Shown in pieces: positions 7,851 through 24,978 of a DNA stretch of 64,000 nt (its first letter is position 1; every line of letters starts with the position of its first letter). The position numbers were made by a program, and so were the translations under genes. A model generated the notes under the pieces. It made no database searches. It saw only the letters and a program-made list of their open reading frames with translations, and was not told the origin of the DNA. The DNA lies in contig JACOEH010000016.1 of the NCBI GenBank assembly GCA_024998685.1, positions 1 to 64,000 on the forward strand, given 5' to 3'. The stretch comes from Nitrospira sp. Lineage in GTDB: Bacteria > Nitrospirota > Nitrospiria > Nitrospirales > Nitrospiraceae.

Positions 7851-7943
7851 GGAGAGGTGGCCGAGTGGCCGAAGGCAGCGGTTTGCTAAACCGCCGTAGG
7901 GACAAAATCTCTACCGAGGGTTCAAATCCCTCCCTCTCCGCCA
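7851..7943 (+). tRNA. tRNA-Ser (GCU anticodon)
   Basis: The acceptor stem GGAGAGG (7851-7857) pairs with CCTCTCC (7933-7939), followed by G and an encoded CCA. The anticodon arm GCGGT-TTGCTAA-ACCGC carries GCT at 7885-7887. A long variable arm (GTAGGGACAAAATCTCTAC) marks a class II tRNA, as expected for serine. The T-arm GAGGG-TTCAAAT-CCCTC is intact. Confidence 0.97.
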
Positions 7944-8086
7944 TCCCACAAACTCGTATGTGCATGAAGCATAGGACCTCTCCTCACCTTTTTCAGTGAG
8001 ATTTCTGTTGTGAGAGTTGAAAAGCCTATCGTATTCTTACGAGCCACATTTGCCCATCGTCCCTCATAAGAAAGGACCGCTACCCC

Positions 8087-8764
8087 ATGAGAAATCGTCT
8101 ATTATGTTTTGCGCTAGGGTTTTCCCTTCTCACGACCCCGCTCTTGGCCGCCTCATCAGATCCGGTCAATGATGATCAGAAAACCTTGTATGCCCTTGGA
8201 TTGGCGATCAGCCAATCGTTGGGAACCTTTGCCCTAAGCGAGACCGAACTCGATATGGTCAAACACGGCATCACCGACGGCGTCCTGAAGCGCCCTCACA
8301 AAGTCGATCTCCAAACATTTGGGCCGAAGATTCAACAATTGCAACAGGGTCGATTGGCCGTTGCTGCCGAGAGTGAGAAGAAGGCCGGCACCGCGTTTAC
8401 GGCGAAAGCGGCTTCGGAAAAAGGAGCGACGAAAACGGAGTCAGGGATCATCATCACCACCATCAAGCCCGGTACCGGAGCGACGCCGAAAGCCACCGAT
8501 ACCGTCAAGGTCCATTACCATGGCACCTTGACCGATGGAACGGTATTCGATAGTTCCATTAAGCGAGGGGAACCGGCGACATTTCCGTTGAACAAGGTCA
8601 TCAAGTGTTGGACAGAGGGAGTTCAACAGATCAAAGTCGGGGGAAAGAGCCGACTGGTGTGTCCATCCAATCTGGCCTATGGTGATGCAGGTTCACCGCC
8701 GGTCATTAAGCCGGGAGCCACGTTAGTCTTCGAAGTGGAGTTACTTGACATCGTCACCAACTGA
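8087..8764 (+). CDS. Periplasmic FKBP-type peptidyl-prolyl isomerase
   Basis: 225 residues with a Sec signal peptide (cleavage likely after LLAA, about residue 22). An FKBP N-terminal helical dimerisation domain (about 30-120; YALGLAISQSLGTF) is followed by a C-terminal FKBP domain (about 125-225). Active-site residues are visible: VKVHYHGTLTDGTVFDSS (Tyr, Phe-Asp), then NKVIKCWTEGVQQIKVGG (Val-Ile, Trp) and LAYGDAG. It would catalyse proline isomerisation or act as a chaperone for exported proteins, like FkpA/Mip. The start follows AGAAAGGA. A hairpin at 8775-8801 likely ends the transcript. Confidence 0.92.
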   Translation: MRNRLLCFALGFSLLTTPLLAASSDPVNDDQKTLYALGLAISQSLGTFALSETELDMVKHGITDGVLKRPHKVDLQTFGPKIQQLQQGRLAVAAESEKKAGTAFTAKAASEKGATKTESGIIITTIKPGTGATPKATDTVKVHYHGTLTDGTVFDSSIKRGEPATFPLNKVIKCWTEGVQQIKVGGKSRLVCPSNLAYGDAGSPPVIKPGATLVFEVELLDIVTN

Positions 8765-8774
8765 CCGCTTCGCC

Positions 8775-8801
8775 GTGCCGCCTCTGTCAAAGAGGCGGCA
8801 C
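8775..8801 (+). terminator. Perfect 11-bp hairpin after the FKBP gene
   Basis: GTGCCGCCTCT pairs with AGAGGCGGCAC around a 5-nt loop. There is no clear T-run, so it may act as an RNA 3' end stabiliser rather than a strict terminator. Confidence 0.6.
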
Positions 8802-8850
8802 GCTATTCAATTCCTCAACGCCTGCCGATTCCAAAACGACCACCCGTCCA

Positions 8851-10188
8851 ATGAATCCGGATGAATCCGATAGTGGAACGATGGTGACCGAGAGGACCTT
8901 CATGAATCCCGAAGGCGCCGCATCTCCTTCGCCCCTCCGTTGGTTGATTCTCGGGCTTCTCTTTGCCATCAGCATCGTCACCTACATCGATCGCGTCAAC
9001 ATTTCGGTCACCGCGCGTCAGATGATGCCGGCGTTGGGACTTACCGAGCAGGAGATGGGATTTGTCTTCTCCGCATTCGTCATCGGATATGCCTTGTTCC
9101 AGATTCCTGGTGGGTGGCTCGGTGATCGGTGGGGCGTTCGCGTCGTTCTCATGATGGCATTGATTTGGTGGTCCTGCTTTACTGCCTGGACGGCCATTGC
9201 CGCTACTTCGTTCCTGACCGCTCCGCTCGGAATCGTCGGAGCACTGGCCCTTGTCAGATTTCTTCTCGGTATCGGAGAGGCAGCGGCATTGCCGGCCTTT
9301 AACCGCGCCGTCACCGACTGGCTTCCCGCTCATGAACGCGGTCTCGGTATCGGCATCGCTATCGGAGGAATCGGGGTCGGCGCCGCGATCACCCCGCCGG
9401 TCACCGCTTGGATCATGGTCAACTATGGCTGGCAATCCGCCTTTTATCTTTCAAGTGGGATCGGATTCGCCCTTGCCGCCGTCTGGTGGTTCTCGGTCGC
9501 CGATCGCCCATCACATCACTACCGGCCCACTCATGACGGAGCAACCTCGTTCACGACTTCAACAGCTCCAACGCGCTCTTCAATCTCCTGGGCTATCCTA
9601 CGAAGGACACCGAGTGTGTGGTGGCTGACGCTGAGTTACGGATGCTTGGGCTATGTCGCCTATGTCTATATGTCCTGGTTCTATCTCTACCTTGTCAACG
9701 AGCGGGGCTTCAGTGTTTTACGAGGCGGAGTGTTTGCTGCCGCTCCATTTTTCGCAATCCTTCTATCGTGTCCGCTCGGCGGATGGGTCACTGATCGATT
9801 GGCGATTCGGCGAGGAGTGACGAAAGGCCGTCAGATAGTGGGCATGATCGGTATGGGGATGGCAGCAGGCTCCATCGCCTTGGGTGCCGCTGTAGAATCT
9901 CCGTATCTCGCCATCGCGAGTTTGTCATTGGGTGCCGGTTGGCTCTACTTCACAGTCGGCGCATATTGGTCCTCAATGAGCGATCTATCACCGACCCACG
10001 CCGGCAGCCTCTCAGGCCTCATGAATATGGGGGGCAATCTCGGTGGGGCAATTTCGCCAACGCTCACGCCATGGCTTGCGCAACGATGGGGTTGGGGCGC
10101 TTCCCTCGGCTTCGCTGCCTTTATTGCTCTGCTCGGGGGGATTATATGGTTGCGCATCAAGCCCGGAGATGGACTCGTAAAAGAGTAA
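8851..10188 (+). CDS. MFS transporter, anion:cation symporter-like
   Basis: 445 residues; starts at 8851, 8881 or 8902 are all possible. About 12 transmembrane segments. The N-terminal signature YIDRVNISVTARQMMPALGL, then FVFSAFVIGYALFQIPGGWLGDRWG (the MFS loop 2-3 motif), is typical of the ACS family of hexuronate, glucarate and phthalate transporters. GIGEAAALPAFNRAVTDW is the family-typical TM4 region. The C-terminal half holds GGWVTDRLAIRRG and GNLGGAISPTLTPWLAQRWG. The substrate cannot be read from sequence; an organic anion taken up with H+ is the family norm. Confidence 0.85.
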   Translation: MNPDESDSGTMVTERTFMNPEGAASPSPLRWLILGLLFAISIVTYIDRVNISVTARQMMPALGLTEQEMGFVFSAFVIGYALFQIPGGWLGDRWGVRVVLMMALIWWSCFTAWTAIAATSFLTAPLGIVGALALVRFLLGIGEAAALPAFNRAVTDWLPAHERGLGIGIAIGGIGVGAAITPPVTAWIMVNYGWQSAFYLSSGIGFALAAVWWFSVADRPSHHYRPTHDGATSFTTSTAPTRSSISWAILRRTPSVWWLTLSYGCLGYVAYVYMSWFYLYLVNERGFSVLRGGVFAAAPFFAILLSCPLGGWVTDRLAIRRGVTKGRQIVGMIGMGMAAGSIALGAAVESPYLAIASLSLGAGWLYFTVGAYWSSMSDLSPTHAGSLSGLMNMGGNLGGAISPTLTPWLAQRWGWGASLGFAAFIALLGGIIWLRIKPGDGLVKE

Positions 10189-10194
10189 AAGACG

Positions 10195-10236
10195 GTGCTG
10201 AGTGCTGAGCAGTACTCTCAGACTCGGCACGCAGCA
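10195..10236. repeat. Intergenic inverted repeat
   Basis: A TGCTGAGTGCTGAG arm faces CTCAGACTCGGCACGCAGCA, giving an imperfect hairpin between the MFS and cyclophilin genes. It could serve as a transcript end. Confidence 0.45.
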
Positions 10237-10280
10237 CTATTGGAAGATCTTGTCACCATGATGACCGCCTTGCTACATTC

Positions 10281-10808
10281 ATGACGATGGCACTCGAGTT
10301 TCGAAAGAAAGATCCCCGGGTCACGATCATCACGAGATTCGGTGAGATCAAGATTCGGTTCTACTCCGATGCAGCGCCACGCCATGTGGAGAACTTCATC
10401 AATCTCGTCAAGATGAAGTTCTATGACGGCACCACGTTCCATCGTGTGGTGCCAGGCTTCCTCATTCAGGGCGGCGATCCATTGAGTAAAACTTCCGATC
10501 GCGTTCTCCACGGCACGGGCGGACCGGGATACTTTCTTTCTCCCGAGCCGAACGATCAACCACATAAGCGCGGCGCAGTATCCACGGCGAAAATGCCCCG
10601 TGAGAGCAATAGCACGCGTGACTTCAACGACAACGGCTCACAGTTTTTTATTTGCGTAGGAGAGAACGGCGGTTTGGATCGGCGGTACACGGTGTTTGGA
10701 GAAGTCTTTCGTGGGATCGAGGTTGTCGACAAGATTGTCGGTGTCCCTCGCGACGAGCGGGACAACCCGCTCGATCCGATCACGATCACGATGACCGTGA
10801 AGGAGTAG
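10281..10808 (+). CDS. Cyclophilin-type peptidyl-prolyl isomerase
   Basis: 175 residues without a signal peptide, so probably cytoplasmic; ATG 10287 is an alternative start. Cyclophilin core: APRHVENFINLVKMKFYDGT, FHRVVPGFLIQGGDP (catalytic Arg and Phe), then NGSQFFICVGENGGLDRRYTVFGEV. The sequence carries a short insert (HGTGGPGYFLSPEPNDQPHK) of the type seen in bacterial PpiA/PpiB relatives. It starts about 50 bases after the hairpin at 10195-10236 and is 34 bases upstream of the Sua5 gene, so those two may be co-transcribed. Confidence 0.92.
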   Translation: MTMALEFRKKDPRVTIITRFGEIKIRFYSDAAPRHVENFINLVKMKFYDGTTFHRVVPGFLIQGGDPLSKTSDRVLHGTGGPGYFLSPEPNDQPHKRGAVSTAKMPRESNSTRDFNDNGSQFFICVGENGGLDRRYTVFGEVFRGIEVVDKIVGVPRDERDNPLDPITITMTVKE

Positions 10809-10842
10809 GGACAGGCGTCGGTGCGGTATTCCTGCAATTCCG

Positions 10843-11844
10843 ATGGGTGGAGAGACCAAGCATGTGAAAGGTGCCGTTCTCTCGGCTGCAGATTCTGAAT
10901 CCATCCGGCTGGCGGGAAGGATCGTCAGAACAGGCGGACTTGTCGCGTTTCCAACCGAAACAGTCTATGGACTCGGTTGCGATGCGATGAATGCCGACGC
11001 AGCAGCAAAGGTCTTCGAAGCCAAGCAACGTCCTCAGTTCGACCCGCTCATCGTCCACATCGCTGATCCGAAGCAGTTGACTGTTGTAATTGAATCTCTG
11101 CCCGTTCTGGGGCAGCGTCTCATAGACGCTTTTTGGCCGGGTCCACTGACGTTGGTGTTACCAAAACAGCCGGCAATCCCGGATCTCGTCACTGCCGGGC
11201 TTTCAACGGTCGCGGTCAGAATGCCGAACCATCCTGTGGCGCAGGCGCTCATTCGAGAAGCCGGTACTCCGATCGCCGCCCCCAGCGCCAATCCCTTCGG
11301 CTATGTCAGCCCGACGACCGCTCAGCACGTTGCTGATGGGCTGGGGAGCAAAATAGATCTCATCCTCGACGGCGGACCATGCCCGGTTGGGGTCGAATCG
11401 ACGATTGTTTCACTGGCAGGACCACAGCCTGAATTGTTACGCCCCGGCAGCATCACCATCGAACAACTCTGCGCCGTCATCGGCTCTATTCGCCGGTCGT
11501 CGTCTGTGAATGAAAAGCCGATCGCACCAGGTCAATTATCACGCCACTACGCGACACGGACGCCCCTGACGATCTTGGCCTCCGTAGGAGCAAGGCCTAT
11601 CCTGAGCGATGACGAGCGCGCGGGCTTATTGATTCACTCGCAAACCGGAGATACCGACGATCGCTTTACAGTCGTTGAAGTGCTCTCTCCTACCGGCGAC
11701 CTGAGGGAAGCTGCACGCTGCCTGTTTGCAGCGCTGCGGAAGCTGGATTCCCTTGGTCTGGATAGGATCTATGTGGAGCCTTGCAAGGAAGAAGGACTTG
11801 GGGTCGCGATCATGGATCGCCTGCGCCGCTGCGCCGCGCCATGA
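10843..11844 (+). CDS. L-threonylcarbamoyladenylate synthase (Sua5/YwlC type)
   Basis: 333 residues. It makes threonylcarbamoyl-AMP from threonine, bicarbonate and ATP, the first step of t6A formation at position 37 of ANN-decoding tRNAs. The YrdC domain (about 15-205) has GLVAFPTETVYGLGCDA, then KQRPQFDPLIVHI (KxR motif) and APSANPFGYVSPTTAQHV. A C-terminal Sua5 domain (about 225-333), joined by SRHYATRTPL, distinguishes it from short TsaC/YrdC proteins. Family length is about 340. The symbol is tsaC or sua5 by convention; I leave it blank because both are used. Confidence 0.93.
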   Translation: MGGETKHVKGAVLSAADSESIRLAGRIVRTGGLVAFPTETVYGLGCDAMNADAAAKVFEAKQRPQFDPLIVHIADPKQLTVVIESLPVLGQRLIDAFWPGPLTLVLPKQPAIPDLVTAGLSTVAVRMPNHPVAQALIREAGTPIAAPSANPFGYVSPTTAQHVADGLGSKIDLILDGGPCPVGVESTIVSLAGPQPELLRPGSITIEQLCAVIGSIRRSSSVNEKPIAPGQLSRHYATRTPLTILASVGARPILSDDERAGLLIHSQTGDTDDRFTVVEVLSPTGDLREAARCLFAALRKLDSLGLDRIYVEPCKEEGLGVAIMDRLRRCAAP

Positions 11845-11968
11845 CGGATGAACAAGCTCTAGCAAGTAAGCTGATGTGGAGAACTAATCAACTGGGGTTC
11901 GCCTAGTGATCGGCAAGTCCGGCTAAGATCATTGTCCAATCAACTCGTAAGCCGAACGTCGGCTCCGC

Positions 11969-13003
11969 TCACCCACCGCCAAGCACGACATGGAACGTCA
12001 AATCAACATCAACTCGACGCACTTTGACCGACACCTCTTGCCCCGGGCTCGTCCGCTCGATGAGGAAATTTTTCAGCTGGGCTCCATCGACAATTTCCGT
12101 ACTCTCGATGGCCAGCAAGATATCGTGTTTCTGAATACCCGCTGATTTCGCGGGTTCAGCGACTTCCTTCACCGCAACGCGCAACTTCGTGCCGTCTTTT
12201 ACCGACGTCATCTGGACCCCAAGTCTTGAGAAAGCCAGCGGCTTTCCTGACAGAGATGCATTGATAATGCGCTCCGCAAGAGTCCCTGGAATGGCAAAGG
12301 TCATGCGACTGCAATGGGCCTGGGCTTCCTCTTTATCGGTTTGGATCACAGCATGCACGATGCCGACGATTTCTCCTTGCGCATTGAACAGACCACCTCC
12401 TGAATTTCCACTGCAGGCCGAAAGATCGGCCTGGATGAGACGGGTATCCACGGTTTGCAGGAAGGTGTTGGTATTACCGATTTTCCCAAAGGCCATGGTC
12501 GGTCCCCAACCAAGCGGATAACCGACGGTGAAGATTTCCATCCCAGGTGATGCCTCGGCCGCGGCAAAAGATGTCCCTGTCTCCAATTTGGAGCGATGCG
12601 GTTCGCCGACTCGGTACAAGACGACATCCATGAACGCACTGTCGCTCACAAGATCGGCAGGAAGCTCATGGAGGTCATTCGTGAGTACGTGTATCCGTTT
12701 CTGAATAACGGGACCTGTTGCAACCCCGTGTTTCTCCACGGTATGTCTCGCGGTAATCACATAACCGTCTCGCAGATGAACGCCGGTTCCTCGTACGACG
12801 ACCTTCCCGGGCTTCTCCGGCATTCGCTGATCTTGCGTATCTGCCAGAATTCCTACGGTCACCTGTCTCGCTCGAAGAAACCCGTCCTGACCGACCGGCG
12901 TCGTTTCAGCGTTGAGCGGGAGGCTGAGCATTGTCGTGGCGACCCACACACCGAACATATGAAGCGAGAGGTAGCGGGCTGCAAATAGGCTGCAGATGCT
13001 CAT
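11969..13003 (-). CDS. Secreted trypsin-like serine protease with PDZ domain
   Basis: 344 residues; AAAGGAGT lies 7 bases before the ATG. An N-terminal hydrophobic segment (about 8-32, ending in LNAET) is a signal peptide. The chymotrypsin-fold domain carries the triad: His in YVITARHTVE, Asp in SAFMDVVLYRV and Ser in SACSGNSGGGLFN. A PDZ domain follows (about 245-344; ILLAIESTEIVDGAQLKNFL). The architecture is HtrA/Deg-like with a single PDZ. It would act as a periplasmic quality-control or processing protease. It is divergent from the SUMF1 gene at 13206, with about 200 bp between their starts. Confidence 0.88.
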   Translation of the reverse strand: MSICSLFAARYLSLHMFGVWVATTMLSLPLNAETTPVGQDGFLRARQVTVGILADTQDQRMPEKPGKVVVRGTGVHLRDGYVITARHTVEKHGVATGPVIQKRIHVLTNDLHELPADLVSDSAFMDVVLYRVGEPHRSKLETGTSFAAAEASPGMEIFTVGYPLGWGPTMAFGKIGNTNTFLQTVDTRLIQADLSACSGNSGGGLFNAQGEIVGIVHAVIQTDKEEAQAHCSRMTFAIPGTLAERIINASLSGKPLAFSRLGVQMTSVKDGTKLRVAVKEVAEPAKSAGIQKHDILLAIESTEIVDGAQLKNFLIERTSPGQEVSVKVRRVDVDLTFHVVLGGG

Positions 13004-13205
13004 GCAAACTCCTTTCCGATGCGGCGCGCATGTTCTGACCGCATACTATAATCGGATCGTGTTGTTTCTGAAAAGATGCCCATGACTGACAACGGCCTGG
13101 CCACTGCCCGAAACAATTGTAAGCCAAGAGTAGTCGGTTTATAGTGCGTTCGGTTTATAGTGCAACGCGATCCGGATCCAGCCATGATCTTCCGGACGAG
13201 AAGTT

Positions 13206-14105
13206 ATGCCGCCCTATTGCATATGGCCGGTCATCACGCTATTTCTCCTGGTCATTATTGAAAGTCCCTCCATCGCAACGGCCGGCTCCAAACCTTCACC
13301 GGAACTCGCACGCCATTTAGCGGAGATCGTCACGCTGGCCAGGCCTTCACCGATGATGACCGTCCCGGCCGGAACGTTCTTGCTCGGAAGCAACAGAGTC
13401 GATAATGATCCCTACGGGGGCCGGACGCAGTTTGACGATACGGAACTGCCTCAACATCGAGTCTGGTTGGATGCCTATGAGATGGATCGGGATGAAGTAA
13501 GCCTTGGAGAATACCTGGCCTTTCTACAGAAACAAAAGATTCATCCCTCGGACGAGTTGCAGAAACTTCTCTGGCACGTCATCACCGTCCACTTCATCTC
13601 CGACCAGATCCTATCCCGCTGGCCTGCCCTCTATGTCACCTGGACGGAGGCGAACGATCTATGCGCGGCAAAACACGCCAGACTACCGACCGAGGCTGAA
13701 TGGGAGAAAGCGGCGCGAGGATCCGAAGGCATTCCTTATCCATGGGGGGACGCGATTCCCAACTCCACACTCGCGATGTTCGGGCAGCACCATGTCCATG
13801 AGATTCCCATTCTCGCAGCAGTCGATTCCTATGAGGAAGGTAAAAGCCCCTATGGCCTGCACCATATGGCGGGCAACATTGCCGAATGGGTACAGGATTG
13901 GTTCGGGTTCGACTACTACGCCTATATGCCGGAGCGCAATCCGTCGGGTCCACTCACCGGGCGCTACAAGAGCGTTCGGGGCGGTTCTTGGAAAAGCCGA
14001 CGCGTCATGCTTCGAACGGCGACCCGAGGCGGTGCCGCTCCGGATCAACGTGCCGCGACGATCGGTTTCCGATGCGCGCGAACATTGATGATCGATAGCC
14101 CTTAG
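13206..14105 (+). CDS. SUMF1/FGE-fold protein lacking catalytic cysteines
   Basis: 299 residues with an N-terminal signal peptide (about 1-27). Formylglycine-generating-enzyme fold: MMTVPAGTFLLGSN near residue 55, ELPQHRVWLDAYEMDRDEVS, LPTEAEWEKAARGSEGIPYPWGD, GNIAEWVQDWFGFDYY, RGGSWKSRRVMLRTATR and IGFRCAR. True FGE has a Cys pair in the RGGS segment; here these positions hold no Cys, so sulfatase activation is unlikely. Related Cys-less family members act as structural or redox-associated proteins. It converges on the second SUMF1 gene at 14137-15009; the stops are about 30 bases apart. Confidence 0.85.
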   Translation: MPPYCIWPVITLFLLVIIESPSIATAGSKPSPELARHLAEIVTLARPSPMMTVPAGTFLLGSNRVDNDPYGGRTQFDDTELPQHRVWLDAYEMDRDEVSLGEYLAFLQKQKIHPSDELQKLLWHVITVHFISDQILSRWPALYVTWTEANDLCAAKHARLPTEAEWEKAARGSEGIPYPWGDAIPNSTLAMFGQHHVHEIPILAAVDSYEEGKSPYGLHHMAGNIAEWVQDWFGFDYYAYMPERNPSGPLTGRYKSVRGGSWKSRRVMLRTATRGGAAPDQRAATIGFRCARTLMIDSP

Positions 14106-14136
14106 CGTTCAGAAACCGTCTCGGCGGTTCAGAGAA

Positions 14137-15009
14137 TTATGGAGTAGACGGATTCCTTGTTGACTGGTTCATCGGTCCACTGGTCGCGCAACGAAATCCC
14201 GTGGACTCGTTTCGAACCGTTGGATCGCTCTCCACGCGAGTAAAGATGCGGACCGTGGGCGTCTCGTTTTGCCAGCCCGCGCCGCGAATCACTTTCTTTG
14301 TGCCCGTGTCCGGACCTTTCGGATTCTTTTTCGGGCTCTTTTCATAGTATCGGGCATCGTACCAGTCATTGACCCACTCCCACACATTGCCGGCCATGTC
14401 ATACACCCCATACGGACTCTTGCCCGCCTCATAACTTCCGACGGGCATGAGCGTCCTCTCCCCGATCCACCGTTGATTGTAATTGAGATGCTTGGAGGTC
14501 GGTTCGACATTCCCCCAAGGGAATCGCCTATCGGACGTCCCTTTAGCCGCCTTCTCCCATTCGGCTTCAGTGGGGAGTCGTTTGTCCGCCCATCTGCAGT
14601 AGGCCTCGGCATCAAACCAGTCGACATTGATGACGGGTCGATCGATCAACTCATCCGTGATGCTCTCTTCTTGCCAGAGGTTTCTGGTCGGATTTCTTGG
14701 ATTTTGTGGAACGCGATGCCCTGTGGATTTTACGAATTCCAGATAACGGCCGTTTGTCACTTCAAATGTGTCTATGGCAAATGTGTCGACGAACACGTCA
14801 TGGCGTGGATATTCATCGCGTCCCCCGTCACGGGCTCCCTCCGGGACACCCATTGGGAACAAGCCGGACGGGACCACGATCATTGGGGCACCGTCTTTGC
14901 CCGTCGGTGACCCGACCGGATCATGAGCCGGTTGTTCATTCGCGAATAGAACGGACGCATCCAATCCAAAGCACAACAACGCCGCCGCAGCAAACATGTG
15001 AACACCCAT
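14137..15009 (-). CDS. Second SUMF1/FGE-fold protein lacking catalytic cysteines
   Basis: 290 residues with a signal peptide (about 1-24, ending LFANEQ). Same fold as the gene at 13206: MIVVPSGLFPMGVPEG, YPRHDVFVDTFAIDTFEVTN, RLPTEAEWEKAAKGTSDRRF, YDMAGNVWEWVNDWYDARYY, VIRGAGWQNETPTVRIFTR and STGFRC. The FGE cysteines are absent. It lies last in the collinear minus-strand series oxidase, cupredoxins, lipoprotein-sorting-like protein and HEAT protein. An exported structural or assembly role in that locus is inferred. Confidence 0.85.
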   Translation of the reverse strand: MGVHMFAAAALLCFGLDASVLFANEQPAHDPVGSPTGKDGAPMIVVPSGLFPMGVPEGARDGGRDEYPRHDVFVDTFAIDTFEVTNGRYLEFVKSTGHRVPQNPRNPTRNLWQEESITDELIDRPVINVDWFDAEAYCRWADKRLPTEAEWEKAAKGTSDRRFPWGNVEPTSKHLNYNQRWIGERTLMPVGSYEAGKSPYGVYDMAGNVWEWVNDWYDARYYEKSPKKNPKGPDTGTKKVIRGAGWQNETPTVRIFTRVESDPTVRNESTGFRCATSGPMNQSTRNPSTP

Positions 15010-15117: not shown

Positions 15118-16479
15118 CTATTCTTTCGGCGGCACGACTTTCAACAGCGCTCCTCCGGCCGTTGCCCGAACGGCATCATCTTCATCGTGCAGGCTCTGTT
15201 TGAGGAGTGGAATCGCGCGCTTATCATCAATCTTTGCCATTGATTTCATCGCCGCAATCCTCACTCGAGGCACCGTATCTTGAACCAGCAGCATCACCGC
15301 CGATCGCGTCGGTTCGCGATTCGATTCTACGGCATGCCCCAACGCTCGCGCCACGGCGGCACGAACGGCCGGCTCTTTCGCGTTCGTGAGAGTCTGGATC
15401 GGACCGGTCAGGATCTCATATCGTTCCCCCTGTTCCAATAAAGCACCGATGACGAACGCCCTGACGGGGAGATCGCGATCATCAAGAGCTCCATGCAACG
15501 GCGTACGGACGTCGAATCCGCGCAGCTGCCCTAGACTGACGGCTGCGGCGATCCGCACGGGAGGGAGCGGGTCCCTCAGCAGTCGTGTCAGCGCAGTGAC
15601 GGCTTCGGCAGCGGGCACATGGGCGAACCCTGTGGCTGACGCCCCTCGCACCGACGGCTGTTTGTGCTCGCTCGACTCGATGAGAATCGGCAAAACTTCT
15701 GACGGCTGCCGATCAACCAGGGCACGAATCGCCGAGGCACGCTCTTCCGGATTCGGCGCTTTCGCGTACTGCAAGAGCAGTCCGCAACCCTTGGGGCGTT
15801 TCAGATGGCAGAGCACTTGGGCGGCTGCGACTCGTACCCGTACTTCAGGATCTTTCAGCGACGGCTCGACGAGCGGGATGACCGAAGTATCATCGGATTT
15901 TGCAAATCCCTTGAGTACCGCTTCCTTCACCAATGCCGCCTGATCTTCCAGGGCCTTCCGAAATCGAACCGAGCGACGTCCCGCATCAAGTTTCGCAAGC
16001 CCTTCGGCCGCCAAGGCTCGGACAAGACCGGATCCGTCGCTGAGCCCATCCTCGAAGAATGGAATCGCGTCGGGACTCTGCCATTCTTTTAGCGCCGTAT
16101 AGGCTGCCCCGCGCATCTGCTCTCGCATATCTTTCGTAAGGGTTACGATGAACCCAAGCGAGATCTCTCGAAGGATGAGCGGGTCGTCCTGCTTCAACGT
16201 CTGCACGAGCTTGTCATATTCCGTCAGCGCATCCTTCGGATTGCCGAGCTTCAGCAATGTGCGAATTTTGAGTCGATGAGCATCCGGTGCGTCTGACGTC
16301 TCTCTGTCCAATTTGGCCGCCTCCTCCAGGACCTTTTGGTATTCCTTGCTGTCGTAAAGCGTTTGAATCTTCAGAAGATCGGATTCCGTCCCGCCGAATA
16401 CCGGCTCAAGCATAGGAGAGAAAACCCAAGCCAGGGCAAACAATGCGACGACAACGTGTCGTATGGACGGGACGATCAT
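15118..16479 (-). CDS. Exported HEAT-repeat protein
   Basis: 453 residues from ATG 16479, chosen because it opens with a signal peptide (HVVVALFALAWVFSPMLEPVFGG) and lies 4 bases after the upstream stop; the longer in-frame ORF start overlaps the upstream gene. A short TPR-like region (about 25-90; YDSKEYQKVLEEAAKLD) is followed by at least eight HEAT/PBS-type helical repeats (e.g. PLVEPSLKDPEVRVRVAAAQ, ALTRLLRDPLPPVRIAAAVS, PLLKQSLHDEDDAVRATAGG). Such alpha-solenoids are protein-binding scaffolds. Its place beside copper proteins suggests assembly or scaffolding in the periplasm. Confidence 0.85.
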   Translation of the reverse strand: MIVPSIRHVVVALFALAWVFSPMLEPVFGGTESDLLKIQTLYDSKEYQKVLEEAAKLDRETSDAPDAHRLKIRTLLKLGNPKDALTEYDKLVQTLKQDDPLILREISLGFIVTLTKDMREQMRGAAYTALKEWQSPDAIPFFEDGLSDGSGLVRALAAEGLAKLDAGRRSVRFRKALEDQAALVKEAVLKGFAKSDDTSVIPLVEPSLKDPEVRVRVAAAQVLCHLKRPKGCGLLLQYAKAPNPEERASAIRALVDRQPSEVLPILIESSEHKQPSVRGASATGFAHVPAAEAVTALTRLLRDPLPPVRIAAAVSLGQLRGFDVRTPLHGALDDRDLPVRAFVIGALLEQGERYEILTGPIQTLTNAKEPAVRAAVARALGHAVESNREPTRSAVMLLVQDTVPRVRIAAMKSMAKIDDKRAIPLLKQSLHDEDDAVRATAGGALLKVVPPKE

Positions 16480-16483
16480 TTCT

Positions 16484-17119
16484 CTATTCCCTGCGCCGCT
16501 GGTCGGCCTCGATTCGGCGCTTCCTGTATCCACGCGGCTCCTCGAAATACATGCTGGGCTGGGGCGATATTCGGATCCGCTCATACTCGAGCGACCAATC
16601 ACGGTCCTGGCTGACCAGCTTGAGCATAATCCCGGTCTCCGCATCGACCCATTGGTAGAACCGCTCGAGGTGCCCGTGGCGGTCCGTTTGAACATCAAAC
16701 AACCGCGCGGCACGACCCGCCGCCGTCGCGTCACCGACGGCTATCCTGCATGTTTCTCCGACCAACTCCGGACGTATCGACAGAGTATCGTCCGTGATCG
16801 GCAGGACCAGCAAGTGTTTCTGTTGGGGAAGGACATACCAGATCTCGGCCAAGTCCGGTCGGACGATTTCGATCGCCGCAAACCCCGCCTCTGTTCGAAC
16901 GGCATCTCGGTACTCTAACCTGATGCGCATACCTTTGGCATACACGTGGGCGAGAGATTTCTTGCCGTTGACTCGTTTGATGAGCGTGCCGGAAAATTCA
17001 GGCACGGAAGGAAGCGTGTCGCCGCCTGCTACGTTCGAGATCGGTACACAAGGCGCCATCGCACCGATGCACACAAGGAGCATCGCACTCCGGATCCTCC
17101 TCGCCACGCGCCGATGCAT
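16484..17119 (-). CDS. Exported LolA/LolB-like protein (DUF4412-type)
   Basis: 211 residues with a basic N-terminus and signal peptide (about 8-32). A mainly beta protein: FSGTLIKRVNGKKSLAHVYA, EIWYVLPQQKHLLVLPI, FYQWVDAETGIMLKLVSQD and WSLEYERIRISPQPSMYFEE. This alternation of strands and the PQQ-like tail with PxxMFE/PxxMYF resembles outer-membrane lipoprotein-sorting-type folds that bind lipid or ligand. It has a tight operon position: 6 bases after the cupredoxin gene and 4 bases before the HEAT gene. The specific function is unknown. Confidence 0.7.
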   Translation of the reverse strand: MHRRVARRIRSAMLLVCIGAMAPCVPISNVAGGDTLPSVPEFSGTLIKRVNGKKSLAHVYAKGMRIRLEYRDAVRTEAGFAAIEIVRPDLAEIWYVLPQQKHLLVLPITDDTLSIRPELVGETCRIAVGDATAAGRAARLFDVQTDRHGHLERFYQWVDAETGIMLKLVSQDRDWSLEYERIRISPQPSMYFEEPRGYRKRRIEADQRRRE

Positions 17120-17125
17120 CGGGCA

Positions 17126-18058
17126 TTACTGCTGACGTTCGAGCAACGGCTGGATATCGATGGAATACCCTAAAGACTCGGGGCCGAACCGAGGATTGTC
17201 TGTGACCTTATACGCAGTTCGATTTCCCTTGGGAGCAGGCAGCACAAGTTGCTCTCGAAGCTTTCCATCCGGTCGCACCACAACCGTCCTTGTCGTTCCA
17301 GGTCCTGTCTTCGGGTGCCAGACCACCAACTGATACGTACCGGGGGGAATGCCGGCAATCGAGAACCTCCCCTCGGCATCCGTCAGGGCATAATAGGGAT
17401 TGTTCACGGCCATGGCCCAGCTTTCCATATAAGCATGGAAGCCGCATTGCATGTAGAACGTCCGTCGCCCTTTGTTCAAATAAATCGGCCCGACCAGCGA
17501 TGCTCCCGGCGCATGGTCGTGCGTCGCACGGAGATCCCCTCGCCGATGCTGATGATTCATGACCAAAGGGGTATTGAACAACACTCGCGCCCCCGCTTCC
17601 GGCGACGTCTCATAGCCTTGGATGTCGTGCATAACGGGATCCATGTTGACGACTTCGACTGCATGCCCATTACGGACAACGGTCATGAACGGCAGAAACA
17701 TGCAATCGCGGGCTTCGATCAAAGGAACGGAAACCTCAAACGGTTTCCCGGCTTCGACTCCTTCCAGGAGCACAATGGCATTCCCCAATCCTCCTTGATG
17801 ACCGACGGCAAAGTCATGCAGCAAACGCCACCCGCTGCCATTGGAGATACGACCGCAATAGGCAGGATCCGGAAAGGTAATCAGATTAAACCCCTTCGGC
17901 TCCGGCACCGGTCCATCGAGAGTCACCGTTCCTTCGATGGTTCCACCGTGCTGTACATCTGTGACTTCATAGGCGTGAGCCGGTGTGACTGATGAGGACG
18001 TAACCGCCAAGACAAGTGCGGCACTGAGGCTCAACATGCAATGGGCGACCCTCGTCAT
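17126..18058 (-). CDS. Periplasmic cupredoxin with CnaB-like regulatory domain (copy 2)
   Basis: 310 residues from ATG 18058 (GGAGAG upstream; the in-frame GTG at 18079 is less likely). A signal peptide ends near HAYEV. Two features stand out. First, a cupredoxin-like domain with candidate type 1 copper ligands: His144 in NMDPVMHDIQ, and Cys205, His208 and Met211 in QCGFHAYM. Second, a carboxypeptidase-regulatory/CnaB-like beta-sandwich (about 222-265; PYYALTDAEGRFSIAGIPPG). The protein probably carries electrons in the periplasm. It is a diverged duplicate of the gene at 18090-18995 and probably partners the multicopper oxidase upstream. The short Cys-x2-His-x2-Met spacing differs from plastocyanin's Cys-x2-His-x4-Met. 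Confidence 0.8.
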   Translation of the reverse strand: MTRVAHCMLSLSAALVLAVTSSSVTPAHAYEVTDVQHGGTIEGTVTLDGPVPEPKGFNLITFPDPAYCGRISNGSGWRLLHDFAVGHQGGLGNAIVLLEGVEAGKPFEVSVPLIEARDCMFLPFMTVVRNGHAVEVVNMDPVMHDIQGYETSPEAGARVLFNTPLVMNHQHRRGDLRATHDHAPGASLVGPIYLNKGRRTFYMQCGFHAYMESWAMAVNNPYYALTDAEGRFSIAGIPPGTYQLVVWHPKTGPGTTRTVVVRPDGKLREQLVLPAPKGNRTAYKVTDNPRFGPESLGYSIDIQPLLERQQ

Positions 18059-18089
18059 CGGCACGACTCTCCAATTCACACGAACTGCA

Positions 18090-18995
18090 TTATGGCGTCT
18101 GCAGCTGGAGAGTCGCGGGAATCTCCAGCGATTTTCCCAGCGCCTCCAGCCCGAAACGCGGATTCTCGGCGATTTCGTGGACGCTACGACGCCCTTTGGG
18201 AGATGCGAACGTGAAATCGGCTTGAAGGGTCTGTTTCGCCGAAATCGATATTCTCTTTTCGAGCATCGTCCCTACACCGGGATGCCAGGCCATCAAGGTA
18301 TACTCGCCGGCAGGCACATCGGACAGCGAAAACTGTCCCTTCGAATCGGTCACCACGTAATAGGGATTGTCCACGGCGAACCCCCAGCTTTCCATGTAGG
18401 CATGAAATCCGCACTGCATGACGAAAAACCGACGGTTCTTCGTCAGCTTGACGACTTCGATCATCGGTTGTCCGGCCAGATGCTCATGGCTCTCAGACCC
18501 GGCGTCACGCACGTGCATGGGATTCATCGGAAGGGGTGTGTTGAATAACACGCGTGGACCCAGTTCCGATGTCTCGTACGCCTGAATGTCATGAAACACC
18601 GGATCCATGTTGACGACCCGGACCTCGGCCCGGTTCTTCACCACCGTCACAAAAGGCAGGAACCGGCAGTCTCGCGCCTCGATGGTGGGCGGCTCGAACT
18701 TGAACGGCTTTCCCTTCTCCGCATCGATCAGCAACACAACGGTGTCTTTGAGGCCTCGATCTGCCGACACGCTGAACTCGTCTAAAATTCGCCACCCGGT
18801 CCCGGTGGAGATTCTCCCGCAATAGACCGGATCCGGAAAGGTAATGAGATTGAACCCTTTGGGGACCGGCTTCCCTTCCGTCATCCGCACTGTACCCGTG
18901 ATAGTTCCGCCGTCCGTCACGTCCATTTCCTGATAGGACCAGACCGATGACGCACAGATCAAGAGGAGCAGAGCTGAAACCAACGTTGCTTTCAT
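18090..18995 (-). CDS. Periplasmic cupredoxin with CnaB-like regulatory domain (copy 1)
   Basis: 301 residues; GAAGGTGA precedes the ATG, and a signal peptide ends near VWSYQ. Same architecture as the gene at 17126: GFNLITFPDPVYCGRIS near the N-terminus, a His in NMDPVFHDIQAYET (135), then VMQCGFHAYMES with Cys195, His198 and Met201, and a CnaB-like domain (PYYVVTDSKGQFSLSDVPAG). A cysteine in the N-terminal PDPVYCGRI segment, conserved in both copies, could form a disulfide. It is likely an electron carrier for the oxidase encoded upstream; a terminator-like hairpin (19052-19084) separates them, so expression may be partly independent. Confidence 0.8.
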   Translation of the reverse strand: MKATLVSALLLLICASSVWSYQEMDVTDGGTITGTVRMTEGKPVPKGFNLITFPDPVYCGRISTGTGWRILDEFSVSADRGLKDTVVLLIDAEKGKPFKFEPPTIEARDCRFLPFVTVVKNRAEVRVVNMDPVFHDIQAYETSELGPRVLFNTPLPMNPMHVRDAGSESHEHLAGQPMIEVVKLTKNRRFFVMQCGFHAYMESWGFAVDNPYYVVTDSKGQFSLSDVPAGEYTLMAWHPGVGTMLEKRISISAKQTLQADFTFASPKGRRSVHEIAENPRFGLEALGKSLEIPATLQLQTP

Positions 18996-19118: not shown

Positions 19119-22100
19119 TTACTGCCTTGCTACCGGAACGATATACGTCGGTTCATCAACAGACGCGTTCTTCGTTCCTGTGGCGGCACTGGAAAGCGGC
19201 AAGACCCGTTGATCTCCAGCCGGCAATACCCGCAGATAACCCCACTGTCCAGACTGCGAGTAGGGTAACCGCTGATTGCTCCAGACATAATCACCCGGCA
19301 TGCGGAACGGTCCCCCGGCGCTCGGAAGGAACGCGTCCAGAGCCTCCGATCCGGAGAACTCCACCACGCTGATCATGTCGGCTCCCCGCATGAACGGCTC
19401 AATCGGCCACTCATGGCGTTCGACGCTGAACATGCCGTTCTGTTCGTTGCTCGCGCCGAACACGTGGATCCGAACGGGATCTCCGGCATGGGCTTCGATG
19501 ATCGGCGTCACCGGATCTTCCGGTTTGTCCACAACGCAGGGTTGGAACACCTTGCCGAGTGTGCAGCCCTTTTCTTCGCGGAATTTATACGGCTCCGCTC
19601 GGTAGTTGACCGCCGTCAAGCCCGCCGTGTTCTGGATATAGGGCATGAAACTCGTCCCGATGATATTGTCCTCGTCCTGGAAGAAGAGGGCCACGTCGCG
19701 ATAATTCACGCGATGCTCATACCCCTGAATCGTCCGATCGACAATGACATCGGCCACCCAGCTGTTCTTCGTCGAAATGTCCGCCCCGGTTTTCGGGTCA
19801 CGGTACTGGGCACCCTTCGGGCCGATGACCACCGCACCATAGAGTCCGTTCCGCGGATTGGTCATCACATTGGCCCAGTCCCATACCAACGAGGCGGTCT
19901 CTCCCAGGAACGGGTCCGCGTAGTACGTATAGGTGCGGTTCTCTCCCGGTGCGATGGTCTGATCGCCGGGATTGTTCCCGACGTTCGCGCCGAGCGAATC
20001 CTTGGGGTCGAACGCCAAGCCGATGGCGGAGAACGATGCTCGGCTCTCCTTCATCCGGTTGGTCAGCTTCACCTTGAGGCAGTCCCCGACATTGGCCCGC
20101 AAAGTCAGGGGCATCGGCTGGACACCCTCGGCGACCCTCGTGGCATCTTCTTCCAACGCGTAAATCTTTGCGTTCGGATTGACCATCTGGATCGTCCGTT
20201 CGAAGTCGACCTCAATGGCGTCAGGCGCCTTGGGGTTCAACTTCATCGAAGGATAATCCAACGCCACGACGTTGAAGCTTTTCACCGGCGCGTCAGCCGG
20301 GCAGACCGCCAGCGGCTTCGGAATCTCATTTCGGCGGCTGTACCCGGCGGGGAGCTTCTGAAGATCCGGAGTCTCCTTGTCCAACACCCGCATGATGCCC
20401 CAGGCACCCTCAGAGAACTTCGAGCCGCGACCGTTGAAATGGATGTAGTCTCCCGGTTGGAGCCGAGGCCCACCCGCTTGCGGCACCACCAGATCGTACC
20501 GTTCGGCAATGCCGATATGGATCGAGTTCTTCCGGTTCGCATCGCCCGCATAACGTTCGGTCAGATAGGTATGGCCTGAGACCGTCCATACCATCGTCTC
20601 GTTCGCCATGGTCTGAAGCAGCCGGAACACTACGGTATCGCCCAGATATGCTCGTACCATCGGCGTATAGGGGTCGCCGTGGACTGCGCTGCTGAATAGC
20701 TTGGACGAATCAGGATTCAAGGCCAAGCGGCTCGAGATGGGCTCGGCTTTGAAGTTCAATCCGCCGCCCGTCGTATGTGTGCCGCCGTTGAGGAAGGGCA
20801 TCGGTGTCATGGGAATTTTTTCCGGCATCGGGAAGGACACCGTTTTCCCGGCTTCCAACGCCACTTCGATCGGTTGCCCCGGCGGATTACCGGCCGTGAC
20901 GATGTTCACCGTATGCGGCACGGTATCATTGAGCTGCACCAGCAGCTCTCGGAAGCTGCCGTTCACTCCATATCCAACCGGCTCCGCCGTTCGGATATCG
21001 GCAAGCGGCCCGCTCCGGACCTCCTTGCCGGTCTTAGGATTATGGTAGGTCGAACCGACCGGCTCGGCGATGAGAGTGCCGAAGCCCCCGTGAGGCCATG
21101 TGACTCGCCCCAGCGCATGGTCGTGCCAGAAAACCGTTCCGACATCGGAATCCACCCAGAATCGCTGCCGGACAAACTCCACCGTCACGATATCGTTGGC
21201 CGGATGAGCGTTTTTCAACGGACGATAGAGCGTGATCTGATTGCCTTTGATCGACTTGACCCGGCCGATCTCGTTGTCTCCGACGTTGTCCGCTCCGATC
21301 AGAAGTTCCACGTTCGGATGGTATTGGGCGGCGTTTTTGACTGTAATGACCCGGTCGCCCTTCTTCGCCGCCTTGGTGAACACGGTATTCATCGGCACAG
21401 GCAGACCCTTTTTCACCTTCTTCTCCAGCATCGTGAACGGGCGCACCGATTGTTCATAGGAAAAGCCGGTGATCACGCCGTCGGACGATTGATTGTCGAA
21501 CTGCAGGAAGTGCCAATGCGTATTGATCTTCGATGCCTGGAAGTTGATATGGTCATCGTCCAGCCACTCGCTGGTCAACATCCAATCGACACAATCATAA
21601 ATATTGGCGCGTACCACCAGCGGATACTTGATGTCGCTCTTCCTGGTCTGCGCCTCTTCCTCGTGCAGGACATAGATCAACCCGTCCTTGTCCACGATGG
21701 CCGGCGTATCCCCCTGTTTATCGGCCAGCGTCATCGGGGTCTGAATGAAATGCACGTTGTATTTCTTGGAGCCCGCGTTCTCCGGGCATATGCTCCAGCG
21801 TCCATTCTCTCCCGGCTTGGCCGGATAGGAACTGGGCAACCCGTCGTCGTCGAGGTGAATCATATCCAGCCACGGAGCTGGGTTGTGATTCTGAGAGAAG
21901 ATCACACGACGGCCGAAATGCGGCTTCAAATGCGGCCAGGCGATCTTGCCGGTGGCTGCCTCGAACACGATCGGCAGCCGCTCTCCAGGATGCGCCGATT
22001 GGTAACGCGGGTTGGGCACGGTGTTTTCGCGTTCGGTCATCGCGCGATCACCCTGCCAGGCCCAATCCAGCACGCTTGCGTCGTAGGAACGGGTCTGAGC

Positions 22101-23942
22101 ACGCTCATCTTTCTGATGCCCAGGTTGTCCCTGCGGCGGCAGCTGCATGTTGACCCAGTCCTTCACATTGACGACGGCAGGCGATGCCTTCCAGTTTGTC
22201 TTCCCGTCCTTGACGATGGTGAACATCTTTCCGAACCAGTCCACGGTGCGACCGATGAGCTGGTCCGATGTAATACCGGCATGAATACGGCCCGCCCGGT
22301 CCGGCAGCTCTCGCAGATCCGGCATCACATCGTTGTGATCCCCTCCCTGCTGCAGGGTGTTGTACACCCTCCAATAGCCCCACATGCCCGCGATGTAATG
22401 GTGCGCGACGTGGCAGTGGAACAAGAAGTCCCCGGCCAACTGCTGACAGAGTCCGGAACCGCATTCGGTTTCCAGGTCCATCGTCTCGGACGGTCCGATG
22501 ACTTCCACATCGACTCGATCGGACTTCATCCGAATCACGGGGTATTTGACCGGCCCATTCTTGGCCGCATGCCACAGGGGCATTTCGTCGATGGCGCGCG
22601 GACTCCGTGGCCAACGAATCGATCCACCGTGCGGATGGTGGGAGTGAAATACTTCAGACCCTCCGTGCACGAGGCGAAACTTTGCCGGATCACCCAAATA
22701 ACTGCGCGGCACGGTCGTCGCCGGATCGCCGAATGTATAGGCGCTGTAGGCCATGGATTCGTCCTCGAATCCGAAGTACTCGTGCTGCGTTTGCATGTTG
22801 TCGACGCCGAAGGGTTCGCTCCGGTAATTCAACGCGCGGGCCACCGGCCGGTACACGTCGGTCAAGGGATCGCGTTGAGGAATGAAGTCGCCTTTCTTAT
22901 TCAGCGGCCGGAACGCCTCGTCTCCGACTTCATGATAGATCAATACGAATTCCCGGAAGTCAGGCCCCGACCCGTTCTTGATGATGGCCTGCCATCCGCT
23001 GGCCATCGGCGTCGGCTCGCCGGTTCCCAGCGGGTCGAGATATTGAGACCCCTTGGGCTCGATGACGAACGTGCCGAACAGGCCCATGACCGTCAGCTCG
23101 CGATCGTTACTGTACGAGTGGAACTGCCGACCGCCCTCCTGCTGGGTCGGCGGAATGTACCACTCCAGTTCCACGGCCTTCCCTTGAGCCGCGATGCTGT
23201 CCGGATTCGTCGTCGTTGCCGGTTTACCCGTGGAGGCAACGATCATGCTGGAGCCGTGAATGTTGAGGCTCACTTCCTCACCGCCCTCCAGTTGGTTGCG
23301 AAGCGTCATCTTGACGCAATCGCCCTGATTGCCTCGGATCACTAACGGCTGAATCCATTGGCTCTGCAACCCGTTTTTGACGGCTCCGGGATCATAGCCT
23401 TCCTTCTCGCGGGCCGCCCGATTGGCCGCCTCTTCTTCCCGCATCTTTTCAAGGTTCTCGGTCAGGACATACATGTAGCCGGGATAGAAGTCGAGCCACA
23501 TATTGAGCGAAATCTCGACGTTGACCGCCGAGATGTCGTACTTCCGGACCGGCGCGGCTGCCGGACAACGCCCGCCCGACGTCGAAACCGGTTCCACACC
23601 GGAATTCGACATGAGCAGCACATCCTGATTTCCGGCGCCGTACTGGTGCATCATGTTCAGATCGTTGTAGTACCCGCCGGTGCGTTGCGCGGTCGCGTCA
23701 TGCTGCATCTGTTGCATGACGCGTTGGTGCTGCCGCTCGACCATGCCGGTACGTTCCGGCTGGCCTTCCATCGTATTTTCGATAATCGTCTGCCCCTTCA
23801 GCTGTTCGGCCCAACCCGACGGCTGATGGTTCATCGCCACATGCGATGGAGTCTCAGCGAGCAAGGCCGACGGCGCAAGAAACAGCGCGATGCCGGCGAG
23901 TCTGCTCAAGACTCGGATGGATGTGTAATGACGGTGAGACAT
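19119..23942 (-). CDS. Giant multicopper oxidase with permuted copper motifs (candidate metal oxidase)
   Basis: About 1607 residues. ATG 23942 is chosen because AAGGAGGG lies 7 bases before it; the in-frame ATG at 23960 overlaps that site. Signal peptide about 1-29. Three long modules each open with a CP-x-x-A motif: CPAAAPVRKY (Cys126), CPENAGSKKY (Cys719) and CPADAPVKSF (Cys1214). Copper motifs occur as HSHHPHGG (433-440), then FHCHVAHHYIAGM (Cys510, Met520), then THWHFLQF (His809, His811), then WHDHALG (His940, His942). The third module keeps the fold but has VWDWANV in place of WHDHALG. This size and layout recall large Mn(II) oxidases (MofA/MnxG type); iron, copper or organic substrates are also possible. 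It is secreted and probably outer-surface. It is followed by two cupredoxins. Confidence 0.88.
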   Translation of the reverse strand: MSHRHYTSIRVLSRLAGIALFLAPSALLAETPSHVAMNHQPSGWAEQLKGQTIIENTMEGQPERTGMVERQHQRVMQQMQHDATAQRTGGYYNDLNMMHQYGAGNQDVLLMSNSGVEPVSTSGGRCPAAAPVRKYDISAVNVEISLNMWLDFYPGYMYVLTENLEKMREEEAANRAAREKEGYDPGAVKNGLQSQWIQPLVIRGNQGDCVKMTLRNQLEGGEEVSLNIHGSSMIVASTGKPATTTNPDSIAAQGKAVELEWYIPPTQQEGGRQFHSYSNDRELTVMGLFGTFVIEPKGSQYLDPLGTGEPTPMASGWQAIIKNGSGPDFREFVLIYHEVGDEAFRPLNKKGDFIPQRDPLTDVYRPVARALNYRSEPFGVDNMQTQHEYFGFEDESMAYSAYTFGDPATTVPRSYLGDPAKFRLVHGGSEVFHSHHPHGGSIRWPRSPRAIDEMPLWHAAKNGPVKYPVIRMKSDRVDVEVIGPSETMDLETECGSGLCQQLAGDFLFHCHVAHHYIAGMWGYWRVYNTLQQGGDHNDVMPDLRELPDRAGRIHAGITSDQLIGRTVDWFGKMFTIVKDGKTNWKASPAVVNVKDWVNMQLPPQGQPGHQKDERAQTRSYDASVLDWAWQGDRAMTERENTVPNPRYQSAHPGERLPIVFEAATGKIAWPHLKPHFGRRVIFSQNHNPAPWLDMIHLDDDGLPSSYPAKPGENGRWSICPENAGSKKYNVHFIQTPMTLADKQGDTPAIVDKDGLIYVLHEEEAQTRKSDIKYPLVVRANIYDCVDWMLTSEWLDDDHINFQASKINTHWHFLQFDNQSSDGVITGFSYEQSVRPFTMLEKKVKKGLPVPMNTVFTKAAKKGDRVITVKNAAQYHPNVELLIGADNVGDNEIGRVKSIKGNQITLYRPLKNAHPANDIVTVEFVRQRFWVDSDVGTVFWHDHALGRVTWPHGGFGTLIAEPVGSTYHNPKTGKEVRSGPLADIRTAEPVGYGVNGSFRELLVQLNDTVPHTVNIVTAGNPPGQPIEVALEAGKTVSFPMPEKIPMTPMPFLNGGTHTTGGGLNFKAEPISSRLALNPDSSKLFSSAVHGDPYTPMVRAYLGDTVVFRLLQTMANETMVWTVSGHTYLTERYAGDANRKNSIHIGIAERYDLVVPQAGGPRLQPGDYIHFNGRGSKFSEGAWGIMRVLDKETPDLQKLPAGYSRRNEIPKPLAVCPADAPVKSFNVVALDYPSMKLNPKAPDAIEVDFERTIQMVNPNAKIYALEEDATRVAEGVQPMPLTLRANVGDCLKVKLTNRMKESRASFSAIGLAFDPKDSLGANVGNNPGDQTIAPGENRTYTYYADPFLGETASLVWDWANVMTNPRNGLYGAVVIGPKGAQYRDPKTGADISTKNSWVADVIVDRTIQGYEHRVNYRDVALFFQDEDNIIGTSFMPYIQNTAGLTAVNYRAEPYKFREEKGCTLGKVFQPCVVDKPEDPVTPIIEAHAGDPVRIHVFGASNEQNGMFSVERHEWPIEPFMRGADMISVVEFSGSEALDAFLPSAGGPFRMPGDYVWSNQRLPYSQSGQWGYLRVLPAGDQRVLPLSSAATGTKNASVDEPTYIVPVARQ

Positions 23943-24040
23943 GAACCGACCCTCCTTCATAACATGAAAAATGTAAGTGAGCAGCGAGGGCTACTCAGCC
24001 GGCCTCCTAACCAATATGCAAAGTGAGAAGACAAAATAGT

Positions 24041-24183: not shown

Positions 24184-24813
24184 CTATTGTCGACCTGGTG
24201 ACTTCCGGTTCACCGTCGTCAGTAAATCCATATCCAGCACCACGGGACTATCTGATTTTTTGGGGTCGAGCCGAGTCGGCATCCGGTCTATCATCAACTT
24301 ACTCAAGGGGACCGCGACGATGGTGGGCGCCTTATCCACGGAGTTCGAGTAGAGCGCAATGCGCAGATTTTTGGGCCGTTCGCCGGGGGAAATTTGAGAT
24401 GCCGCGTCAGCACTCATGAAACCAATCAACAATCCGTTGCCGTCCGCGACCTTATGGATTTCATAGGCATTCAAAGGTGAAGCCACCCGTTCCAATTCAA
24501 GGTCAGGACTTTGCGTGACTAACGCCATTCCGAGGGACTGTGGCGCAATGAAGCCGAAGCTTCCTATCGGCGCCTCCGAGAACCGGATGGTTCCGGTGGA
24601 GAGTTCAGCGACATGATTCTTGACGCGCATGTGGCGCCGCAATTCGGCTTCGCTCCCGGCCGTTTCAATCACGACCGCGACCGGTGCAGCTTTCTGGATA
24701 GGGAAGACCTCTGTTGGGCCTCCCTGTTCGGCAAGGAGAGGTTTCTCAAGAACACATAAGAACATCAAAACGAGAGACAGGGTAAGAGAAAGTGAGAGGA
24801 GGATACGGCTCAT
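24184..24813 (-). CDS. Exported hypothetical protein
   Basis: 209 residues from ATG 24813, chosen because a signal peptide (SRILLSLSLTLSLVLMFL, then LAEQGG) begins there; the longer ORF upstream reads as low-quality sequence. The mature part is mostly predicted beta and hydrophilic, with KAAPVAVVIETAGSEAELRR and RIALYSNSVDKAPTIVAVPL. There are no cysteines in the mature region. I recognise no family. It lies upstream of and in the same direction as the oxidase gene, with about 240 bp between them containing the oxidase promoter, so it is probably a separate transcript. Confidence 0.65.
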   Translation of the reverse strand: MSRILLSLSLTLSLVLMFLCVLEKPLLAEQGGPTEVFPIQKAAPVAVVIETAGSEAELRRHMRVKNHVAELSTGTIRFSEAPIGSFGFIAPQSLGMALVTQSPDLELERVASPLNAYEIHKVADGNGLLIGFMSADAASQISPGERPKNLRIALYSNSVDKAPTIVAVPLSKLMIDRMPTRLDPKKSDSPVVLDMDLLTTVNRKSPGRQ

Positions 24814-24978
24814 GCGAAAATGATAGGTGCGCGGAAAAATGTACGCGGGAAAATGACGCTTCTCGTCGGTCGATCGGAAGATTCTAAGGAGCCGACTGGT
24901 AAAAAGCAAACAGGAAAAAAGAGATGCACCACGGCACGTGCCGAGAACAGATCTTCGTTGCACTCCTAAAATGATCGC

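Follow-up and report, generated by a model that had tools for sequence, protein, structure and literature searches.

Introduction

When two-domain multicopper oxidases (MCOs) become fused into a trimer, the trinuclear copper site can persist at any of the three inter-module interfaces. Ceruloplasmin kept the site between domains 6 and 1, which gives the textbook order of the copper motifs, whereas the bacterial six-domain oxidases kept the one between domains 2 and 3 (d2/d3), which gives the order described below for a protein of Nitrospira. Vasin et al. (PMC3600357) located the trinuclear site in d2/d3, and the type 1 (T1) copper in d2 only, in every bacterial six-domain oxidase that they examined, while in ceruloplasmin and hephaestin, which are likewise made up of three two-domain modules, the trinuclear site belongs to d1/d6 and there may be as many as three T1 sites (PMC3600357). 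Two reports deal with such enzymes in or near the class Nitrospiria. An MnxG-like oxidase was noted in 2013 in Nitrospina gracilis and Ca. Nitrospira defluvii, and a defence against reactive oxygen species (ROS) based on Mn(III) was proposed for it (Luecker et al., PMC3578206); two novel MCOs per genome were later described in Ca. Manganitrophaceae, with the indication that MCO-based lithotrophy would require a periplasmic carrier (Yu et al. 2022, PMC9040806). Both the 2013 protein and the two Manganitrophaceae MCOs very probably belong to the family analyzed here, and the relevant sections of these articles contain neither a class-wide survey, nor a motif analysis, nor the pairing of MCO and cupredoxin genes.

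In this work we have analyzed a 64,000-nucleotide stretch of a Nitrospira sp. genome (GCA_024998685.1, contig JACOEH010000016.1, positions 1 to 64,000; hereafter the window), which carries a six-domain MCO gene. What is new is that the oxidases of this type form a clade of their own, nearly universal in the class, and usually have, just downstream, one or two genes for blue-copper proteins.

Results and Discussion

The oxidase gene is located on the complementary strand of the window (19119..23942), as is every feature of the window given below with a coordinate range and two dots. The full open reading frame extends to 23960 (19119-23960, 1613 aa), but a Shine-Dalgarno sequence (aaggaggg) directly 5' of the ATG at 23942 makes this codon, the one chosen in the first-pass annotation, the likely start of a protein of 1607 aa. 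The protein matches Pfam Cu-oxidase_3 (2.6e-14), with MnxG (9bxa) as its best relative in the PDB. Its N-terminus, about residues 1-36 (23835..23942; RHYTSIRVLSR-LAGIALFLAPSALLA-ET), is probably a Sec signal peptide, judging by eye from the translation. The closest named records with the gene are Nitrospira genomes, including those of N. moscoviensis and Ca. N. defluvii, with at most 98% identity over the matched part.

A sigma-70-like site is present 5' of the gene (24143-24114). Several oxidase copies are preceded by sigma-54 activators, and for this reason sigma-54 control was also considered, but rejected: strict -24/-12 sites were found at 6 of 63 oxidase genes vs. 13 of 615 others, mostly in one family, and no such site was present at the window copy. 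The window does contain a sigma-54 response regulator and histidine kinase pair (34169-36948), around 10 kb upstream of the oxidase, and relatives of these two genes are found directly upstream of other oxidase copies.

All the copper and module motifs listed in the first-pass annotation could be located in the translation at the residues given there: HSHHPH at 433-438 (22629..22646), in which the canonical HxxHxH is H433/H436/H438; the HCHxxxHxxxxM motif at 509-520 (HCHVAHHYIAGM; 22383..22418), with T1 residues Cys510, His515 and Met520; HWH at 809-811 (21510..21518); and HDH at 940-942 (21117..21125). Alignment of 63 oxidase sequences, distant outgroups included, showed that the 12 copper ligands (H433, H436, H438, H509, C510, H511, H515, M520, H809, H811, H940 and H942) are invariant in every one of them, which rules out chance occurrence of the motifs. 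According to the ligand positions, the complete T1 set is confined to d2, and d2 and d3 share the eight trinuclear histidines.

Three modules, each opening with CP-x-x-A, had been recognized before and explained by an ancestral triplication, and both observations hold. The openings are CPAAAP at residue 126, CPENAG at 719 and CPADAP at 1214, and each A half contains an invariant pair of cysteines (126/209, 719/784 and 1214/1288, in 29 of 29 sequences). When the protein was divided into six pieces and these were compared profile to profile with hhalign, A halves matched A halves (probabilities of 98.9% for A1-A2, 99.7% for A1-A3 and 99.1% for A2-A3) and B halves matched B halves (98.5% for B1-B2, 99.5% for B2-B3 and 96.1% for B1-B3), while no A-B match was obtained. 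The layout is thus 3 x 2. In the first module, d1 (about residues 118-335; 22938..23591) retains only remnants of HxH motifs, N/H227-x-H229 and H275-x-Y/H277, which are partial and vary between sequences, as expected for a lost site, and d2 (about residues 336-545; 22308..22937) holds the T1 set and half of the trinuclear site. The other half is in d3 (about residues 710-1000; 20943..21815), followed by d4 (20328..20942), without a T1 cysteine. In the third module d5 (19728..20321) has lost its ligands, with SFSAIG at the position of HWH and VWDWANV (residue 1353) in place of HDH, the latter as previously noted, and d6 (19203..19727) also lacks a T1 cysteine. A ceruloplasmin-type d1/d6 trinuclear site is therefore absent, the d1 motifs being partial and d6 having no HCH.

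The structure of an H340A mutant of MnxG (9bxa) was the best solved relative by sequence (phmmer 1.2e-81, profile 1.3e-131). An AlphaFold2 (AF2) model of residues 115-1210 (d1-d4), obtained with a 48-sequence Nitrospira alignment, was poor (mean pLDDT 49.7, with most of d2 and d4 below 50); even so, 9bxa was its best fold match (Foldseek 7.6e-23; VIA-align Z 17.4 for 508 aligned residues within model positions 17-1072, vs. 12.7 for the next entry). We infer that the motifs of d2 and those of d3 come together in one trinuclear site; given the quality of the model, this proposal is grounded on collinear homology with MnxG and not on a measured distance. H515, the predicted T1 ligand, is aligned to an alanine of 9bxa, consistent with the H340A change of that structure, and Priestia MnxG has a histidine there.

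The first-pass annotation had regarded the order of the motifs, with HxxHxH and HCH ahead of HxH and HDH, as permuted. This was not borne out by comparison with relatives: it is the normal order for bacterial six-domain oxidases (PMC3600357), and was found in Priestia MnxG, in the proteins of Rubrobacter, Nonomuraea, Halalkalicoccus, Indioceanicola and Streptomyces, and in a MofA/OmpB-like protein of the same genome. Judging from its sequence, the Nitrospira oxidase is a member of the bacterial six-domain MnxG/MofA superfamily with an ordinary, already published arrangement. The earlier picture of an exported, copper-competent oxidase of three two-domain modules, arisen by triplication and akin to bacterial Mn oxidases, is otherwise retained.

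The phylogeny with MnxG and MofA types that had been suggested placed the Nitrospiria oxidases in one supported clade, apart from both, although the tree mixes long branches and its deep joins (Streptomyces, L107) are unsure. MofA/OmpB-type oxidases share superfamily and motif order with the Nitrospira protein, but they constitute another clade and are encoded next to genes of the cytochrome c/periplasmic-binding, beta-propeller and SCO1 types (also PMC5566968); no mofB/mofC or SCO1 neighbours were found at the window oxidase. A third oxidase of the same genome, of 2170 aa, does belong to the MofA/OmpB-like clade (locus L066, G000:C16:79000-97000, 7119-13631, complementary strand), and its neighbours fall in the clusters of beta-propeller, SCO1 and cytochrome c/periplasmic-binding genes of other loci.

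A scan of contigs for the oxidase returned Nitrospira-type loci. The oxidase was detected in 162 of the 163 Nitrospiria genomes sampled, which are mutually related and so do not count as independent cases, and nearly all of them gave two or more matches; in the rest of the phylum only distant relatives were found, in 5 of 232 genomes. Two copies are present in N. defluvii FP929003 (L163 and L191). In the genome studied here, a divergent second Nitrospiria-type copy, with about 54% identity, is located at L065 (G000:C84, 9997-14754, forward strand); it groups with L094, a copy belonging to another family, and is preceded by members of the sigma-54 activator, kinase and response-regulator clusters. 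Tandem paralogues a few kb apart were observed at L083, L088, L114, L149, L174 and L181; these pairs are flanked by cupredoxin genes and in many cases by FGE-sulfatase genes.

Directly downstream of the window oxidase there are two genes, both for exported proteins that end in a CarboxypepD_reg domain (Pfam). The first (18090..18995) encodes an exported protein of 301 aa with cupredoxin and CarboxypepD_reg/fn3_3 domains, and the second (17126..18079) a paralogue of 317 aa, with a GTG start and a possible internal ATG. H135, C195, H198 and M201, the T1 residues of the first protein, are invariant in the 71 family members, and its AF2 model (pLDDT 85.4) has the fold of plastocyanin, amicyanin and Cupredoxin_1, with a match at Z of about 9-10 over model residues 78-188. 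With an H...C..H..M set in a predicted cupredoxin fold, both proteins classify as type 1 cupredoxins. They have the CxxHxxM ligand loop and the fold in common with cupredoxins of the amicyanin/plastocyanin type, but are larger and have two extra conserved cysteines in addition to the C-terminal domain.

The pairing extends well beyond the window. Leaving out 9 oxidase open reading frames too near a contig edge, 55 of the 71 assessable ones in named genomes have a cupredoxin gene on the same strand no more than 2.5 kb downstream, and the 16 without an adjoining one belong mostly to a single Nitrospira lineage that has another, paired copy. The cupredoxin family was found in all 162 oxidase-bearing genomes of the class and is absent from the only one without the oxidase, a small genome about 90% complete. 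Outside the class, 42 genomes that lack the Nitrospiria-type oxidase have the family as well. In six of these, chosen among the stronger matches and not at random, the C..H..M loop is conserved in every case. A cbb3 oxidase is encoded next to the cupredoxin in three of the six and a bd-like oxidase in two, one of which has nosD-type genes as well; the sixth has nos-type genes there. According to the pertinent section of Luecker et al. (PMC3578206), the NXR cluster includes cupredoxin-like proteins and a bd-like oxidase. The simplest reading is that the family acts as a respiratory electron carrier; gene neighbourhood alone does not prove electron transfer between oxidase and cupredoxin. Two loci, one in this genome and one in N. 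defluvii (L244, 4914-8211, and L247, 4498-8186), have an additional cupredoxin copy immediately 5' of a hydrogenase-4/complex-I-like membrane operon.

Further downstream are a conserved protein that is probably exported and belongs to no recognized family (16484..17119; no Pfam match), similar to the cluster-8 proteins that occupy this position in other oxidase loci of the class; a HEAT-repeat protein (15118..16734; HEAT_2, 5.5e-52), with its true start probably near codon 86 and relatives at 19 loci; and an FGE-sulfatase (SUMF1-like) domain protein (14137..15009; Pfam 2.7e-59), whose cluster is present at 17 loci. The latter is one of two convergent SUMF1-like genes near the oxidase (13206-15009). 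An FGE-sulfatase (SUMF1-like) domain is also present in NirV, encoded beside the copper nitrite reductase NirK. Upstream of the oxidase there is a conserved protein of no family (24184..24963; a cluster of 7 loci, no Pfam match).

Taking these data together, we consider it about an even call that the protein is a functional, exported, O2-reducing six-domain MCO that exchanges electrons with the adjoining cupredoxin. We infer O2 as the acceptor and the cupredoxin as redox partner. The single T1 copper, in d2 (H433, C510, H515 and M520), would take up electrons, which would travel by way of the Cys-His arms to the trinuclear cluster that d2 (H436, H438, H509 and H511) and d3 (H809, H811, H940 and H942) form, and there reduce O2 to water, with d1, d4, d5 and d6 serving as scaffold. 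The secreted cupredoxin or cupredoxins would shuttle electrons between the oxidase on one side and the respiratory chain, or some other donor, on the other, and could act as donor to the oxidase or as acceptor from it, since the sequence fits both directions. Mn(II), Fe(II) and Cu(I) are all possible substrates on sequence grounds.

A different reading, which we regard as possible though doubtful, is that of a stand-alone MnxG-like Mn(II)/Fe(II) oxidase that passes electrons straight to O2 with no carrier, and which, as suggested in 2013, might provide nitrite oxidizers with Mn(III) against superoxide. In its favour are the position of MnxG, a component of the Bacillus Mnx complex, as nearest relative of solved structure, the Mn(III) proposal and the two MCOs of each Manganitrophaceae genome as set out in the sections of PMC3578206 and PMC9040806 cited above. 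MnxG shares with the Nitrospira protein the six cupredoxin domains, the motif order and a T1 site in d2 only; it is about 400 residues shorter, and the spacing between HxH and HDH is 46 residues in the Priestia protein vs. 131 in Nitrospira. Several results speak against this reading. The score against the NCBIfam MnxG equivalog model NF041487 (138.6 bits) falls far below its cut-off (3100 bits), and the clade is apart from MnxG and from MofA/OmpB-like proteins. In the Priestia operon mnxG follows two small MnxE/F-like genes; no such pair is found directly upstream of the window oxidase, where a gap of about 220 bp separates it from the 259-aa conserved protein, and its neighbour is instead a cupredoxin. 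Moreover, the oxidase is found across the whole class and not just in known Mn oxidizers, and a stand-alone role leaves the cupredoxin pairing unexplained.

That the enzyme oxidizes Cu(I), to give copper tolerance or to supply copper, seems improbable: CopC-type genes do lie near plasmid-borne relatives in Streptomyces, Rubrobacter and Priestia, but none of the ten window proteins examined is of the CopA, CopB, CopC or CopD type, and no Met-rich Cu(I) segment was noticed in the oxidase sequence. Less credible still is a laccase-like oxidase of small organic molecules, which would agree with generic MCO chemistry and with distant matches to two-domain laccases, but not with the six-domain layout, the MnxG branch as closest solved relative or the lack of aromatic-degradation genes among the window neighbours examined. 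A copper-free structural paralogue, to which the ligandless domains 2B, 3A and 3B might point, is hardly conceivable with the full d2 and d3 ligand set invariant in 63 sequences.

Conclusions

Returning to an oxidase that exchanges electrons with its cupredoxin, a bolder proposal, which we advance only as a speculative and rather unlikely one, is that in Nitrospiria the two constitute a single energy-linked redox module, in either of two forms. In one, the cupredoxin would make the oxidase a soluble terminal respiratory oxidase outside the cytoplasm; in the other, the electrons of a metal oxidized at the T1 site would be delivered to the cupredoxin and the chain rather than lost to O2. Should the second form be true, it would supply the carrier that, in the corresponding section of their article, the authors of the Manganitrophaceae study considered necessary for an MCO in Mn(II) lithotrophy (PMC9040806).

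The class comprises nitrite oxidizers, comammox bacteria and Mn-oxidizing autotrophs, and an MnxG-like oxidase is close to universal in it. Its presence in nearly every genome, usually in at least two copies and with a blue-copper neighbour, suggests that it has a central redox function and is not just an occasional Mn oxidant; the question of electron transfer from an MCO to a periplasmic carrier becomes testable with two purified proteins.
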